IMG/VR virus record: IMGVR_UViG_3300027972_000037
Span: 1-34,854 of that record
Strand: one strand, 5' to 3'
DNA from: a virus
Length of the DNA: 34,854 nt
The notes under the pieces are model-generated. The model was given only the letters and a program-made list of their open reading frames with translations, did no database searches and had not been told where the DNA came from. Within the stretch, counting starts at the first letter, position 1. The number at the start of each line of letters is the position of its first letter. The position numbers were made by a program, and so were the translations under genes. Shown here piece after piece: positions 1,695-10,622 of this stretch.

Positions 1695-1932
1695 GGTGTT
1701 CGGCCCCTTTCTCGCGATCGCAGATCTCGCGGAGACCGCGGATCATGTCGATCATGTCCACCTGGACTCTCCGGCTGCGCCGCCGCGCACGCCGCCCTGA
1801 CCACTCCAGTGCTGCGTCCTTGACCACCTGGTCGGGGTAGCCAAGGTCCTTGTGGAGGAACTCGATGACCTTGGCCGCCGCCTGCAGGCTTGACGTCATC
1901 CGCTTCAGCTCCTCCGCCCGTTTCCCGAACAT
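1654..1932 (-). CDS. Small basic protein (92 aa), unknown
   Basis: Not recognised. Its ATG (1932-1930) overlaps the TGA of the replication-type gene as ATGA, so translation is probably coupled. The N-terminal half is helical (FGKRAEELKRMTSSLQAAAK) and is followed by a very basic stretch around residues 45-57 (RRARRRSRR) that could contact nucleic acid. The C-terminal 13 codons overlap the next gene by 41 bases, which is large for this operon, so the true end of functional sequence is uncertain. The protein lies between a winged-helix protein and a zinc-cluster protein and is likely part of the same early operon. No function is assigned. Confidence 0.55.
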   Translation of the reverse strand: MFGKRAEELKRMTSSLQAAAKVIEFLHKDLGYPDQVVKDAALEWSGRRARRRSRRVQVDMIDMIRGLREICDREKGAEHHVARGESAGPRER

Positions 1933-3050
1933 CAGACCCTCACCTTCTCCAACCGGTATGCAAAGCCTGCCTTCTCGAGCTTCGCTACGATGTCGCGGGC
2001 CCGCTCCTCGAGCTCCCCGCGCCGTGCCTCCATCTCCGCGATCGCTACCGCATCCACCGTGTCACCCGCCTCCGCGCCGTCGAGCATCTTGCCCATCGTC
2101 TGCCGCAGCCGCTCGGGGATCGCCTCCGGGTCGAACGGCTCACGCGAGCGTTCTTCCGTTATCTCCTGGGCGATGCTCGCCGCGCGTCCCATGATCCGCC
2201 GATACTGGTCCACCGCCTCGTCCACCCACTCCGGAACCCCGCCGGCGTCTCCGTTGCGCTGCGAGATCGCCTGGAACTCCTCCATCTTCCCCGCGCGGTG
2301 CTCCGGCAGCCACCGCCGCACCGTGTTGATCGTCCACGGCCAGTCGAGGGCAACGATGCGGTTCATGCAGCCCTCAATCTGCTCGACCGTGTTGCCGTCG
2401 AGGAGCGCACGGCGGAAACCCTGCTGGATCGGGAGCCACTCCTTCCCCTGCGGACGAACACCCTTCAACGCCGCGTAGCGGTCCGTGAGGTGGTCGAGGT
2501 CAGCCTTCTGGACCTTCACCCTCGGGGCCGGTTTTGGTTTTGGCTCCGAGGTAGATCCGTCTACGTCTCCAACCTCACTTCTAACCTCTATAGGCGCCCG
2601 GGCGACGGAGGTCCGGCGCTGGGGCGACCCACCCTCCGGCGCTCTACCGACGGAGGGGGTACGTCGCTCGGGCGCCGGAGGGGGTACGTCGGAAGATTCC
2701 TGCGGCCACATCGGGTAGAGGCGACGTTCGATAACTTGGCCCTTTTCGTCGCGAATGACATCGCGGCGCAAGAGGTTCTTGTCGACGAGCACTTGGACGT
2801 GCTCGCGAACCGTCCGTGCCTCCATGAGGAGGTTCTCGCCGAGCCACTTGTTACTCGCCCAGCAGTAGCCGTGCTTGCCGGCGAGGCCACACACCTTGCC
2901 CCAGACGAGCTTCTGAGCGTGCGTCAGGTCCGGCCGCGCGATGATGAAGGCAGGAATGAACGCGCCGCCGAGCTCCTTCGCGCGCTCGATGGTCAGACCG
3001 TTATCAAGTTCGGCTTCGCGCTCCGGCACCACCCGGTTGCTACCCCCCAC
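1932..3050 (-). CDS. Winged-helix (HTH_36-like) phage replication initiator candidate
   Basis: Start is GTG 3050-3048 with GAGAGGGGG eight bases upstream. Residues about 42-112 form a winged helix-turn-helix: an opening LTHAQKLVWGKVCGLAGKHG, then a recognition-helix region (WLGENLLMEARTVREHVQVL) and a wing ending in RRLYP. This layout is typical of phage and plasmid replication proteins of the HTH_36 or DnaD-like kind, which bind the origin and recruit helicase. A Pro/Arg-rich linker (about 113-175) leads to a helical C-terminal half containing WPWTINTVRRWLPEHRAGKM. The gene sits directly downstream of a 226-base gap holding three stem-loops, an attractive place for an origin or control RNA. 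Function is inferred from fold and position; a transcriptional regulator remains possible. Confidence 0.65.
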   Translation of the reverse strand: MGGSNRVVPEREAELDNGLTIERAKELGGAFIPAFIIARPDLTHAQKLVWGKVCGLAGKHGYCWASNKWLGENLLMEARTVREHVQVLVDKNLLRRDVIRDEKGQVIERRLYPMWPQESSDVPPPAPERRTPSVGRAPEGGSPQRRTSVARAPIEVRSEVGDVDGSTSEPKPKPAPRVKVQKADLDHLTDRYAALKGVRPQGKEWLPIQQGFRRALLDGNTVEQIEGCMNRIVALDWPWTINTVRRWLPEHRAGKMEEFQAISQRNGDAGGVPEWVDEAVDQYRRIMGRAASIAQEITEERSREPFDPEAIPERLRQTMGKMLDGAEAGDTVDAVAIAEMEARRGELEERARDIVAKLEKAGFAYRLEKVRV

Positions 3051-3078
3051 TTGACATCCCCCTCTCGAGCGCTACAAT
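3051..3078 (+). promoter_or_regulatory. Strong sigma70-like promoter on the plus strand
   Basis: TTGACA (3051-3056) is separated by 16 bp from TACAAT (3073-3078). The -35 box is a perfect match and the -10 box matches five of six consensus positions. It points to the right, opposite to every gene around it, into the three stem-loops at 3091-3176. No convincing plus-strand protein gene follows, so it probably drives a small RNA. Confidence 0.55.
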
Positions 3079-3090
3079 GAAAAGCGTTCC

Positions 3091-3176
3091 GGGTCGGCGC
3101 TCACCGACTCGTCAACACCAACAGTCACACGCCCTCGCTCAGGGCTCTTCTCTCCCGCATCCTCGCTCAAGGATGC
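3091..3176 (+). ncRNA. Candidate small RNA: three stem-loops that all show CGCTCA
   Basis: Three hairpins follow the plus-strand promoter within 86 bases. H1 (3091-3110) pairs GGGTCGG with CCGACTC, including one G-U, around loop CGCTCA. H2 (3131-3145) pairs GCCCT with AGGGC around CGCTC, the closing A completing CGCTCA. H3 (3157-3176) pairs GCATCCT with AGGATGC around CGCTCA. The stems differ in sequence while the loop is constant, which is what selection on an RNA loop or a protein-binding loop would give. No clear U-tract terminator follows H3, so the 3' end is unknown. The minus-strand transcript would show loop TGAGCG in the leader of the replication gene, so either strand could be the functional one. 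Confidence 0.4.
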
Positions 3177-3276
3177 ACTTTGCTTCCGTGCCAGTTGCTC
3201 AGACCGGCGACGTCCACCATACCACGGCAGCCGCGCCAGCGTCAACAGGCTGCACAGGCCTCGAACTGAGGAAGGG

Positions 3277-3486
3277 TCAGCAAACACGGCGAAACCTCCT
3301 CCCCGGCCCGCTGTCGCCGTTCGTCCACAGGTCCACGCCGTCCTCGCCAAGCGATGCATGGATCGAGGCCTCGACGGCATCGCGCGTCTCCTCTTCCGAA
3401 CGGCACGCCTCCTCGCGGAGCCACACCGCCTTGACGACGTGGTCGACGCCGAGCTCGTCTTCGTAGAAGGCCTCAATGACCGGCAT
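3277..3486 (-). CDS. Small acidic protein (69 aa), unknown
   Basis: ATG 3486-3484 is preceded by GGAGG at six bases and overlaps the 3' end of the ASCH-like gene by 14 bases. The protein (starting MPVIEAFYEDELGVDHVVKA) is acidic with a helical middle part (EEACRSEEETRDAVEASIHA) and a Gly/Arg tail. Nothing links it to a known family. Tight coupling to the upstream gene and a good ribosome site support it as real. Downstream of its stop is the 226-base gap with the hairpins, so it is the last gene of this sub-block unless transcription reads through into the replication gene. Confidence 0.6.
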   Translation of the reverse strand: MPVIEAFYEDELGVDHVVKAVWLREEACRSEEETRDAVEASIHASLGEDGVDLWTNGDSGPGRRFRRVC

Positions 3487-3850
3487 GGACGACCTCCGGC
3501 GATGCGCTCGGGAGCCACCAGCGAACGTCGAGCGGACGCTTGAGCTTGTGGACGTACACCATCGGCGGCCGCTGGCGCTGCAGGGACGGGTAGCGCTCGA
3601 GGATCCCGCGTTCCATCGCCTCCGGCGACGAGAAGCCGCACGCCTTGTCGAACAAGGCCGAGGCCTCGCGGAGCGTGTGGTGGCTGACGGCCGTGATCTC
3701 GTAGGGGACGTTGACGACGGAGACAATGAGCATGTCGCCGGGACGCGCCAACGGCTGCGGCCGGACGACGGCCTTGATCTGCCAATCGACAATGGCGCGA
3801 TCGGAACACGTCGGGAAAGCGCTCAGCGGTACACGCAGCCGTTGCGACAC
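3473..3850 (-). CDS. ASCH-like small protein (125 aa)
   Basis: Start GTG 3850-3848 is chosen because AAGGGGG lies about eight bases upstream and the frame is protein-like only from there. The core VVRPQPLARPGDMLIVSV, then PYEITAVSHHTL, then a gap and FDKACGFSSPEAMERGILER, resembles ASCH-domain proteins: a small beta-barrel with a G-D near the barrel entrance, an E/T-V strand and a later helix, thought to bind RNA or modified nucleosides. It would be cytoplasmic. The gene overlaps the 69-aa gene and follows the zinc protein by 26 bases. A second ASCH-type protein is encoded at 33419-34081. The family call is by pattern only and moderately sure. Confidence 0.5.
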   Translation of the reverse strand: MSQRLRVPLSAFPTCSDRAIVDWQIKAVVRPQPLARPGDMLIVSVVNVPYEITAVSHHTLREASALFDKACGFSSPEAMERGILERYPSLQRQRPPMVYVHKLKRPLDVRWWLPSASPEVVHAGH

Positions 3851-3876
3851 AGGCGAGCCCCCTTGCTGGACACAGC

Positions 3877-4656
3877 TTAGAACGGAGTACGCTCCTCGCC
3901 AACTACCGTTGTGTCCTCCGGAGCGGCAGGCTCCGTGTCCACCACGTCCGCCACGCCGAGGTCGAACTGCTGGTAGCGGTTGTAGAGCGCCTCGTACTCC
4001 ACGCGCTCGTCGGGCGAGAGCCACTGGAAGCCCGCGAACTTGGCGACGAAGTAGATGCCCTTGGCGTTCTCCTTCTTCTCGAGCTGGAGCGTCACCCGCG
4101 CCGAGAAGAGCGGCACGCCGCGCGCCTTGAACACGCTCAGGAACTTGCGCACCGGCATCGTCGACATCCCGTGCAGCGCGATCGTGAACGGCACGCCCTC
4201 CGCGGGGATCCCGAGGAGGTTGTACTGGAGCGTGCACTTCGGCGGCATGCGTTTGCCGTCCTCCTCCTTGGTCGTCCAGTTGGCGTGCGGGCACTCGTGG
4301 CAGAGCACCATCTCGCCGTCCGGGTTCGCGCCGGTGTCCGGGTGCTGCGCGTCGCGCGACTGGCACACCGGCACGCGGTCTCGGAAGAGCGTGCGGGTCT
4401 TCTTCTGCGAGATGAAGACGCATGTGATCTCCTTCACCTGCACGCTCTCGCTCTCGAGCAGGAACTGCCCGGCGACCCACCCGTCCCCGGTCCCCGATGG
4501 CTGCACGATGCGCACCCGCGGGAACACCATGTCGTCCATGTCGAAGTTCTCCAGCCCGCGCGTGTCCGGGGCTGTTACCAACGCCGTCCCGCGCACCGGT
4601 CCTGGTTCCGCTGCCGTTCCGTTTGCTCCCTGCACCTTCTCCTGATCTCCCGCCAT
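3877..4656 (-). CDS. 259-aa zinc-binding phage protein, possible ssDNA-binding role
   Basis: ATG has GGAGG five bases upstream. Four cysteines, C98, C119, C122 and C141, form a C-x20-C-x2-C-x18-C pattern typical of a treble-clef or zinc-ribbon insert. They sit between strand-rich segments (residues 43-96 and 150-215) that could form an OB-like barrel. The last 25 residues are acidic (DTEPAAPEDTTVVGEE), a feature seen in many ssDNA-binding proteins, where the acidic tail recruits partners. The gene lies in the early operon with the replication-type gene. A ssDNA-binding or recombination role is inference; the family was not firmly recognised. Confidence 0.6.
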   Translation of the reverse strand: MAGDQEKVQGANGTAAEPGPVRGTALVTAPDTRGLENFDMDDMVFPRVRIVQPSGTGDGWVAGQFLLESESVQVKEITCVFISQKKTRTLFRDRVPVCQSRDAQHPDTGANPDGEMVLCHECPHANWTTKEEDGKRMPPKCTLQYNLLGIPAEGVPFTIALHGMSTMPVRKFLSVFKARGVPLFSARVTLQLEKKENAKGIYFVAKFAGFQWLSPDERVEYEALYNRYQQFDLGVADVVDTEPAAPEDTTVVGEERTPF

Positions 4657-4681: not shown

Positions 4682-4957
4682 CTACGCCAACGCGGCTTCG
4701 ATTCGTTCGAGCCGCTCCAGAACGCGTTCCCGTCGGTCGGACTCCCTAGCCCACCGCGTCACCACTCGTTTGATCGCTACGACGCGTCCCCGCACACACG
4801 GCGCGTTGACAGCTCCGATGCCTTGCGCAAGGCGAAGCGCCGGCGCAAGAGCGTAATTCCTAGGGTCGTCGTGCAAGAGAAGCCGGATGTCGTACGCCAA
4901 GAGAACGAGACCGAGAAAAGTGCTTTGCTGATGTTGTCGTCGATGCGAGTCGCTCAT
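4682..4957 (-). CDS. Small helical protein (91 aa), unknown
   Basis: ATG 4957-4955 follows a good GGAGG and is 25 bases upstream of the zinc-protein gene. The sequence begins MSDSHRRQHQQSTFLGLVLL and contains a hydrophobic stretch (about residues 13-25), a middle Ala/Leu-rich helix and a charged C-terminal helix (RRERVLERLERIEAAL) that could form a coiled coil. An upstream in-frame extension exists but lacks a ribosome site. The family is not recognised. Confidence 0.6.
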   Translation of the reverse strand: MSDSHRRQHQQSTFLGLVLLAYDIRLLLHDDPRNYALAPALRLAQGIGAVNAPCVRGRVVAIKRVVTRWARESDRRERVLERLERIEAALA

Positions 4958-4975: not shown

Positions 4976-5058
4976 TTGACAAGGCGGAAGGCGACGACTA
5001 CGATAAGAACGAGTCTCAGCTACCGTTTGCGACACGGTGGTATGAGCCCCTTGAGGGG
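4976..5058 (+). promoter_or_regulatory. Second plus-strand promoter-like site followed by two hairpins
   Basis: TTGACA (4976-4981), 17 bp, then TACGAT (4999-5004; four of six -10 matches). Downstream, ACCGT/ACGGT (5022-5026, 5034-5038) and CCCC-TTGA-GGGG (5047-5058) could fold. As at 3051, it points against the genes and no plus-strand protein follows. It lies in the 145-base gap between the RHH gene and the 91-aa gene. The weaker -10 box makes this less certain. Confidence 0.3.
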
Positions 5059-5102: not shown

Positions 5103-5312
5103 CTAGTTCCTGTACTTCGACTTACTCGGCTCCTTCACGAGCGAGCCCCCACTCTTCTGACGATCCAAGTACTCGACGAGCGCTTCTTCCGCCAGCTCCC
5201 GCATGCTTCTCCCCGTCTGTGCGGACGCGACCTTCAACCTCTTGTGCAGTGGGCCGTCGATCCGCATCAGCTTTCCTTCTCGCCCCCGCCCACCGGGTTT
5301 GTCATCCCGCAC
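5103..5312 (-). CDS. Ribbon-helix-helix (Arc/MetJ-type) DNA-binding protein
   Basis: Residues about 14-55 give the RHH pattern: a short strand (KLMRIDGPLHKRLKVASAQT) followed by a helix pair GRSMRELAEEALVEYLDRQ, as in Arc, CopG and MetJ family dimers, which insert a beta-ribbon into the DNA major groove. GTG 5312-5310 is preferred because AAGGAGG lies five bases upstream. An ATG five codons earlier (5327) has GGAGG directly touching it and would be poorly initiated. It is the first gene of the early operon and follows a near-consensus promoter whose TATACT box is duplicated, so autoregulation is likely. The basic tail may aid DNA binding. The family is fairly sure; the target is inferred. Confidence 0.75.
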   Translation of the reverse strand: MRDDKPGGRGREGKLMRIDGPLHKRLKVASAQTGRSMRELAEEALVEYLDRQKSGGSLVKEPSKSKYRN

Positions 5313-5346
5313 CTGGGCCTCCTTCATCCTCCATCCGCGGTAAACA

Positions 5347-5381
5347 AGTATACACGGGTCGGCCCCGGTGTCAAGAGTATA
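5347..5381 (-). promoter_or_regulatory. Sigma70-like promoter of the early operon, with duplicated TATACT
   Basis: On the minus strand TTGACA (5374-5369) is followed after 16 bp by TATACT (5352-5347), about 20 bases ahead of the RHH gene. A second TATACT (5381-5376) lies 29 bp upstream of the first, just before the -35 box. The two copies could be half-sites for the RHH repressor, with the promoter between them. The promoter call is good; the operator is inference. Confidence 0.6.
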
Positions 5382-5472: not shown

Positions 5473-5549
5473 AAAAGGGGCGGAGAGTGGCGAGGGACCG
5501 ATCGCTACGCTTGACGCGGGACGATGGTTGAGACGAACCACTCTCCGCC
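5473..5549 (-). terminator. Terminator-like 12-bp inverted repeat after the structural operon
   Basis: On the minus strand GGCGGAGAGTGG (5549-5538) pairs perfectly with CCACTCTCCGCC (5490-5479), followed by CCTTTTC. It starts 10 bases after the holin-like gene stop and lies before the early promoter, where an operon terminator is expected. The 47-base loop is much longer than in a normal intrinsic terminator, so it may instead enclose a small RNA or be a recombination site. Confidence 0.5.
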
Positions 5550-9353: not shown

Positions 9354-10622
9354 CTACGCTTCCAGGTCGTACTCCACGAGCGCGTCCTTCCCGTGGTAGA
9401 CGATCGTCGCGTCCTTCGGCGGGTACTTGATCTGGGTGATGTTCACGTTCGGCACCCACGGCTCTTTCGACACAGCATCATCGCCCGCGCCGGCATCGGA
9501 GACCTCCACGAACGCCGTCACGAGCTTGAGCAAGTCGTCGCCGAGCCCCGCATCCGTGATCCCGATCTTGGCAAGGATCGCAAGCGCCTCAGCCCCAAGG
9601 CCGAGGTCGGCAATCGTCACGCGCGCGAGGACGCTCGCAAGGTCGACGGCTGCCCCTTGGTCGGAGACCGGCACCTGCACACGCACCGTGCCTGCGTCCA
9701 ACCCGGTACCTGCGTCGACTATGGTGAGCTCGACCACGATGCCAACCGTGTCCGTCCCGACCCCGACGTCCGAGAGCAGCGGCACGGGGACGACGAACGA
9801 CACCTGATCCGTCGCCAAGCCTGCGTCCGTGATGGGGACACGCACGGTGATGCTCGGCACGCTGTCCTCGCCGTGCCCAGCGTCGGCGCTCACGACAATG
9901 TGGTTGAGGAAGAAGAGGGCCTCCGCGCCGGCCCCGGCGTCGGTGAGAGGGACCGCCACACGCAACGTGATCTCGTCGCCCGCCACAGCCGAGTCGGTGA
10001 GGAGCACCTGAGCGATCACGCCGACCAGCGTCTCGACGGCTGCGCCAACGTCGGCGATTGGCACACGCACCGCGACCGTACCAGCCTCGGCCCCCGTGCC
10101 GGCGTCCGCGATCGTGAACGAGACCTCCGTGGCGACCTCGTCGGCTCCCGCGGCGACCTCGGCCAGGATGATCGGCACGATGAACGACACGGCCTCGACG
10201 GCCGCCCCGGCGTCGGTGATCGGCACGCGCACCTCGAGCGCGACCGCGTCAGCGCCAACGCCAACGTCCGCGGCAAGCGCGATGTGGTTGACGATCTCCA
10301 GGGCTTCCGCGCCGGAGGCCACGTCGGGGAGCAATACCTGCACGACGAGAACAATTCCCTCGGTGGCTGCGCCAGCCTCGGCGAGCTCAACGTGCGCGAC
10401 GACGGCAACCTGGCTGACCCCGCTCCCGGAGTCAGGTAGCTCAACCGAGACGACGATAGCAACGGTCTCAGTCGCGGCTCCAACCTCGCCGAGAAGCGCG
10501 CTCACCGCAACCGCAAGCGCCTCTGAGGCGGTACCGGCATCCGTGACGGAGATCTGCGTAACGGCGATGCCACCGCCCGCCGTGCCGATGACCGTCGTCC
10601 CAATCAGGTTGCGGCCGAACAT
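9354..10622 (-). CDS. Repetitive fibre protein built of 18-residue DAG repeats (422 aa)
   Basis: From about residue 25 to 390 the protein is almost only an 18- to 19-residue repeat: T/S/A-D-A/V-G-x-G/A-x-E/D-x-V/L, followed by about eight alternating hydrophobic residues, often ending V-P-I. About 20 copies are present. D and G recur at the turn, and the alternating V/I/A pattern suits a beta-solenoid or stacked beta-sheet fibre. A longer unit of about 128 residues is duplicated inside it. The C-terminus ends KDALVEYDLEA, echoed in the 360-aa protein. The ribosome site is weak, so translation is probably coupled to the upstream stop. It is likely an adhesin or fibre shaft of the particle. Confidence 0.65.
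   Translation of the reverse strand: MFGRNLIGTTVIGTAGGGIAVTQISVTDAGTASEALAVAVSALLGEVGAATETVAIVVSVELPDSGSGVSQVAVVAHVELAEAGAATEGIVLVVQVLLPDVASGAEALEIVNHIALAADVGVGADAVALEVRVPITDAGAAVEAVSFIVPIILAEVAAGADEVATEVSFTIADAGTGAEAGTVAVRVPIADVGAAVETLVGVIAQVLLTDSAVAGDEITLRVAVPLTDAGAGAEALFFLNHIVVSADAGHGEDSVPSITVRVPITDAGLATDQVSFVVPVPLLSDVGVGTDTVGIVVELTIVDAGTGLDAGTVRVQVPVSDQGAAVDLASVLARVTIADLGLGAEALAILAKIGITDAGLGDDLLKLVTAFVEVSDAGAGDDAVSKEPWVPNVNITQIKYPPKDATIVYHGKDALVEYDLEA
9440..10545 (-). repeat. Array of degenerate 54-bp units encoding the 18-residue repeat
   Basis: The coding region repeats with a 54- to 57-base period that keeps codon phase; recurring DNA phrases such as GCGTCGGTGATCGGCACGCG appear on the plus strand. 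The copies are diverged, so the array is old or diversified. A six-unit block of about 128 codons is duplicated (start near NHIALAADVG, second copy near NHIVVSADAG). Confidence 0.55.

Follow-up and report, generated by a model that had tools for sequence, protein, structure and literature searches.

The DNA stretch analysed here, called the window, is a whole 34.9-kb IMG/VR virus record with 65% G+C. Its capsid, maturation protease, sheath, tape measure and baseplate genes are all on the minus strand, and the source is a myophage. The early genes run leftwards from a likely early promoter, TTGACA-16-TATACT (5374-5347, minus strand). They are headed by a 74-aa ribbon-helix-helix (RHH) regulator gene of the Omega-repressor/Arc-like kind (5103-5327) and continue through a Pam3 gp34-like gene (3877-4656) and small genes to a 226-base gap and the rep gene. 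The small genes comprise a reading frame at 3473-3880 with an approximate start position and a 69-aa gene (3277-3486) just upstream of the gap, all on the minus strand.

The rep gene (1932-3050, minus strand) encodes 372 aa from a GTG start and is a replication initiator gene by its HTH_36 domain and its matches to several replication-initiation PHROG families. The gap before this replication-type gene is thus as the initial annotation described it, and it scores as non-coding in all frames. A ribosome-binding sequence of rep, GAGAGGGGG, can be read directly at 3058-3066 on the minus strand. Inside rep, three copies of short direct repeats of about 19-25 bp resembling GGCGCYCGGGCGACGGAGG lie at 2593-2686, where the coding score dips. 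They are possible origin iterons, as in lambda O, a role that we infer only.

Elsewhere in the window, a perfect 12-bp inverted repeat, GGCGGAGAGTGG/CCACTCTCCGCC with 47 nt between the arms, is at 5479-5549 and is followed by the minus-strand CCCCTTTTC. Lying between the late and early genes, it is likely a late-operon terminator. Another promoter-like site on the plus strand, TTGACA-17-TACGAT (4976-5004), is counter-oriented inside the leftward early region.

The gap begins with a promoter that faces away from rep. This counter promoter, TTGACA-16-TACAAT on the plus strand at 3051-3078 just as initially annotated, matches the consensus at 11 of 12 positions, and its predicted start is about 3085. 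Only two sites in the window match so well, this one at 3051 (plus) and the early one at 5374 (minus). The spacer of the counter promoter overlaps the ribosome-binding sequence of rep on the opposite strand. From here a counter-transcribed RNA of about 100 nt is predicted at 3085-3185, with approximate ends, inside the non-coding gap. It would carry three hairpins and be antisense to the rep leader.

The first hairpin is GTCGG-CGCTCA-CCGAC (3093-3108), the second GCCCT-CGCTC-AGGGC (3131-3145) followed by the pyrimidine tract TCTTCTCTCC, and the third GCATCCT-CGCTCA-AGGATGC (3157-3176) followed by ACTTTGCTTC. The last makes a weak terminator-like end of the predicted RNA. All three stems are thus as the initial annotation drew them, but the identical CGCTCA loop holds for two of the three. 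The middle loop is the five-base CGCTC, since the A that follows closes the stem, and this core is common to all three. The inner stems of the second and third hairpins are alike, CCTCGCTCA[A/G]GG.

The array is also larger than the three hairpins annotated, which left out a fourth at 3190-3208. Read on the minus strand it is GCCGGT-CTGAGCA-ACTGGC with one G.U pair and has the same TGAGC core as the other three. Directly before it would begin a leader transcribed in the rep direction from a promoter-like site on the minus strand (TTGACG-18-TATGGT, 3245-3216, TG before the -10, predicted start about 3209). This site faces the plus-strand promoter, so the two promoters converge across the array.

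The strand clues are mixed. The fourth hairpin is fully paired on the minus strand alone, an A-C mismatch interrupting it on the plus strand, and the first and third hairpins gain U.G loop-closing pairs on the minus strand, so these favour the leader strand. The first hairpin extends to 8 bp (3090-3111) with one G.U pair on the plus strand but an A-C mismatch on the minus strand, which favours the counter-transcript. If both RNAs matter, such a mixture is what one would expect.

GC-rich DNA commonly forms hairpins, and those with GAGC and GCTC loops were listed 44 and 56 times. CGCTCA is not enriched in the window, with 39 occurrences against 37.6 expected. The arrangement is what exceeds chance. 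No dinucleotide shuffle of the 226-base gap out of 5000 gave three non-overlapping hairpins with a common 5-mer loop core, and 33 of 5000 gave two. Pattern scans of viral contigs, with at least 244 matches listed, gave no other case of the same three TGAGCG spacings with each copy in a separate hairpin, apart from tandem-repeat stretches; among the matches listed, three TGAGCG at the same spacing were chance or tandem repeats only.

Scans of viral contigs with the rep protein, a 501-aa protein and the baseplate protein gave no relative covering the array, and a blastn search with the gap found nothing useful in phages or plasmids. Because rep and the neighbouring proteins yielded no relative, the search was moved to structural proteins. 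Sheath and capsid alignments then turned up a handful of contigs from this group and, via the capsid, one 49.7-kb myophage contig, JALTFO010000199.1 (locus L217). The sequences of the sheath and capsid relatives L002 and L206-L208 end short of the early region. No similar element was seen in the regions checked of a more distant record of L211 and of phages Cormatin, ANDSL2_ph1, Tunturi_3 and Tunturi_4, and a weak AT-rich descriptor match in ANDSL2_ph1 was judged chance.

The JALTFO010000199.1 contig is distantly related to the window, with 50% identity in the capsid and 55% in the baseplate protein. It sits in a MAG labelled Candidatus Bipolaricaulota, which may reflect the host or mis-binning; no other copy of its capsid was found among 100 genomes of the assigned phylum. 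Synteny is anchored by its Pam3 gp34-like gene (L217:6586-7383; 33% identity, E 6e-34) and by the next small gene (L217:7416-7790), which matches the window's 3473-3880 frame (31%, E 5e-14). Beyond the small gene and an inserted stretch of about 1.2 kb lie a forward promoter-like site (TTGACA-17-TAGGAT, 9353), four hairpins and a counter-facing promoter. An AT-rich gene for 250 aa (L217:8068-8820), apparently inserted recently, separates the small early genes from the array.

The counter promoter of the relative, TTGACA-17-TACAAT, reads leftwards from 9596 and adjoins the start of the next gene (ATG, 9612). It is conserved as CTTGACATCC...GCTACAAT and is the strongest conserved sequence between the two phages. 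The predicted counter-transcript runs from 9562 to 9462 on the minus strand. Hairpins E (9541-9558), D (9504-9518) and C (9473-9493) are counterparts of the first, second and third hairpins of the window, respectively, and hairpin B (9444-9462) is that of the fourth. Hairpin C is followed by CTGTTTTCG, a better terminator-like 3′ end than that of the window. Only the first 18 codons of the downstream gene are on the contig, so this gene is at most a presumed replication initiator.

We compared the two counter-transcripts from their predicted starts, aligning the hairpins by order and counting the pairs by hand. The linkers are 22 and 11 nt in the window and 22 and 10 nt in the relative, and the fourth hairpin comes 13 and 10 bases beyond the third, respectively. 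The U-containing tail past the third hairpin is ACUUUGCUUC in the window and CUGUUUUCG in the relative. The second hairpin has an identical stem of five pairs, GCCCU/AGGGC, in both phages. In the three variable hairpins, 15 of the 18 pairs are changed on both sides and are still paired in both phages (4 of 5 in the first, 6 of 7 in the 7-bp third and 5 of 6 in the fourth).

The loops behave otherwise. They are CGCUCA in the window versus GUAACA in the relative for the first hairpin, CGCUC versus CAUGG for the second with five bases in both, and CGCUCA versus UUGCCAG for the third. The loop common to several hairpins is UGAGC in the window but CUGGCAA in the relative, where the third and fourth hairpins alone, two of the four, have it (UUGCCAG on the counter strand). 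The inner stems are also alike within the relative, in its hairpins B and C. Loops that are alike within a genome and different between the two genomes could come from local duplication or from a selected pairing code. A further hairpin upstream in the relative, CCCCTCT-CTGCCAA-AGAGGGG (L217:9240-9260), has a loop UGCCA complementary to the UGGCA of two array loops.

By sequence, then, the promoter, the stems and the spacing are what is kept across the two phages, and the loop sequence is not. The constant loop is real in the window but cannot bear the weight that the initial annotation put on it, and the anticipated compensatory change with the loop kept is borne out for the stems of one relative but not for the loops. 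The syntenic copy does support the other initial proposal, a structured small RNA from the counter promoter within the rep leader that possibly controls replication.

The match to the relative was spotted by eye and tested afterwards, and the element is seen in just two genomes. Because the alignment is anchored on the hairpins, the tests against background are those that count. Of 313 promoters in 4.25 Mb of strand, three fitted a descriptor of a promoter plus three hairpins, namely those of the window, the relative and one unrelated contig, in background loci mostly chosen for TGAGCG triplets and so not a random sample. A tighter hairpin geometry without the promoter had four matches in 4.28 Mb of strand, two of which are the window and the relative. 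With the promoter included, 3 of 2000 shuffles reached the window-relative similarity. When the RNA was aligned by itself, 1 of 2000 did so in local and 6 of 2000 in global alignment.

A strong promoter pointing away from the gene, an adjoining three-hairpin stretch, its spacing and its compensating stems amount, as far as sequence tells, to the anatomy of a counter-transcribed antisense RNA that opposes a replication leader. The promoter is on the opposite strand within the rep leader, and it is so placed in the relative too. The predicted RNA is short, folds into stem-loops and is fully complementary to the rep leader. The opposed gene is a replication initiator in the window, while that of the relative is cut by the contig end. 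Since a distantly related phage has the same layout, we take the element to be, in all probability, a natural antisense brake of the plasmid kind that restrains replication. We thus favour, with a fair degree of confidence, an RNA of about 100 nt that lies over the rep leader and brakes rep expression via loop contact and duplex formation.

We infer transcription, pairing and the effect on rep as follows. The plus promoter at 3051-3078 would make an untranslated RNA of approximately 3085-3185 that folds into three hairpins, has a terminator-like end and is complementary throughout to the minus-strand rep mRNA leader. A CGCUCA loop of the counter-transcript would make the initial contact with UGAGCG of the leader, and a duplex would then spread. 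The duplex would lower rep expression by a translation block, early transcription end or RNase III. Since the promoters converge, polymerase collision may add to the effect. The rep output and hence phage replication would be restrained as the copy number rises.

Simple masking of the ribosome site is not supported as the way of action, because blocking the array in silico left the predicted exposure of the rep site unchanged (mean 0.45 versus 0.46), and its unmasking by the antisense RNA was not seen in folding either. An alternative leader hairpin, AGCGCCG-ACC-CGGAACGCU-UUU (-6.7 kcal/mol), is terminator-like and competes with the first hairpin, so attenuation could be permitted in the window; no counterpart was seen in the relative.

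In the plasmid systems the loops differ; identical loops would make the register of their contact less sharp, which counts against the antisense brake. The U-turn motif YUNR is present as CUCA in the window loops but absent from the first two loops of the relative (GUAACA and CAUGG). Conceivably, any loop of the RNA kisses any loop of the rep leader, and the phage-specific loop serves as a code of replication incompatibility or superinfection, a speculation to which we give a low probability.

The initial annotation had offered protein titration, which is not needed to explain the data, and pairing with other mRNAs, which is without support. UGAGCG is at the start codon in only 3 of the 37 listed start sites, those of the minus-strand genes at 4957, 18198 and 24263, and CGCUCA pairing with the start codons of just three genes was judged ordinary. 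A leaderless ORF on the plus strand (3077-3466) was rejected as its codon-position base composition is unlike that of the phage's genes. A double-stranded operator of the RHH protein was rejected too, as the spacing is irregular and centres kept amid varying flanks do not suit a palindromic operator.

The counter promoter might instead act chiefly through its polymerase, in the manner of lambda pO. This polymerase would collide with or block the leftward transcription into rep and the origin, and the RNA would be a by-product or act OOP-like on the upstream gene. The place is that of lambda pO, with early genes on one side and on the other the initiator gene, from which the promoter reads away, the lambda replication effect has been ascribed to the promoter rather than to the OOP RNA (PMC3985674), and the window has two convergent promoter-like sites. 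Left unexplained, though, is why both phages keep three hairpins at fixed spacing whose stems compensate, as are the common loops, and the predicted RNA ends near 3185, short of the upstream gene's 3′ end at 3277, so it is not antisense to that end unless a read-through transcript is made. This account is unlikely, yet it deserves some weight. Quite unlikely is that the rep leader is the working molecule, with its four UGAGC-loop hairpins bound by a phage or host protein, or by a small RNA of the host, as a control of rep translation or antitermination, and with the plus promoter secondary. The full pairing of the fourth hairpin and the U.G closures speak for it, as does the likeness of the second hairpin in stem and size to lambda boxB, GCCCU-GAARA-AGGGC. 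However, the loops GAGCG and UGAGCG are not of the GNR(N)A kind read by N peptides, and a boxA, sought by reading only, was not seen upstream. Moreover, the loops differ in the relative and only two of its four match each other, so no common protein target is apparent, and conservation is strongest at the counter promoter.

As the hairpins adjoin the initiator gene, they might also act as DNA, forming single-strand structures that serve priming or bind the initiator at a replication origin. This is very improbable, as the direct repeats inside rep are better origin candidates and a role in DNA gives no reason for both phages to keep a consensus promoter whose start site lies right at the array. 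Coincidence would make the promoter and the hairpins unrelated and the likeness of the relative accidental. There are two sequences only and hairpins abound in such GC-rich DNA, but the gap shuffles, the promoter descriptor, the tight geometry and the alignment shuffles all make coincidence so unlikely that we give it hardly any credence.

The proposed antisense brake has parallels among plasmids, and its nearest functional likeness appears to be RNAII of pMV158. RNAII is encoded against the copG-repB intergenic region and inhibits repB translation alongside the repressor CopG (PMC4485353). Like the window RNA, it has a promoter just upstream of the rep start that reads away and is fully complementary to the untranslated region before rep, and the element also encodes an upstream ribbon-helix-helix repressor. 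RNAII differs from it in being 48 nt long with a single terminator hairpin and in directly abutting the RepB translation signals, whereas the window RNA would be about 100 nt with three hairpins. The window element belongs to a phage, lies several genes away from the upstream RHH gene and is known from sequence, whereas that of pMV158 is proven by experiment.

CopA of the IncFII plasmid R1 and RNAI of ColE1 are short structured RNAs that oppose a replication leader, RNAI having three stem-loops, and their loops start the pairing. Those loops differ from one another while the window loops repeat one core, and RNAI opposes a primer while the window RNA would oppose an initiator mRNA. No Rfam family matches the window RNA among the covariance models, including those of CopA, RNAI and plasmid ctRNA.

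In phage position, the nearest likeness appears to be lambda pO/OOP, also a backwards-reading element between early and initiator genes with a short RNA. OOP is antisense to cII and has been reported to be without effect on the O-P mRNA stability (PMC3985674), whereas the window RNA would cover the rep leader and end within the gap.

Antisense control of the initiator is textbook matter for plasmids, while OOP, which comes closest among the classic phage cases, reportedly leaves the initiator mRNA itself alone. If true, a conserved counter-transcribed RNA over the initiator leader in uncultivated myophages would mean plasmid-style copy control in phages. It would also provide a simple signature for finding more such RNAs and raise the question whether phages of this group pass through a plasmid-like stage or control superinfection.
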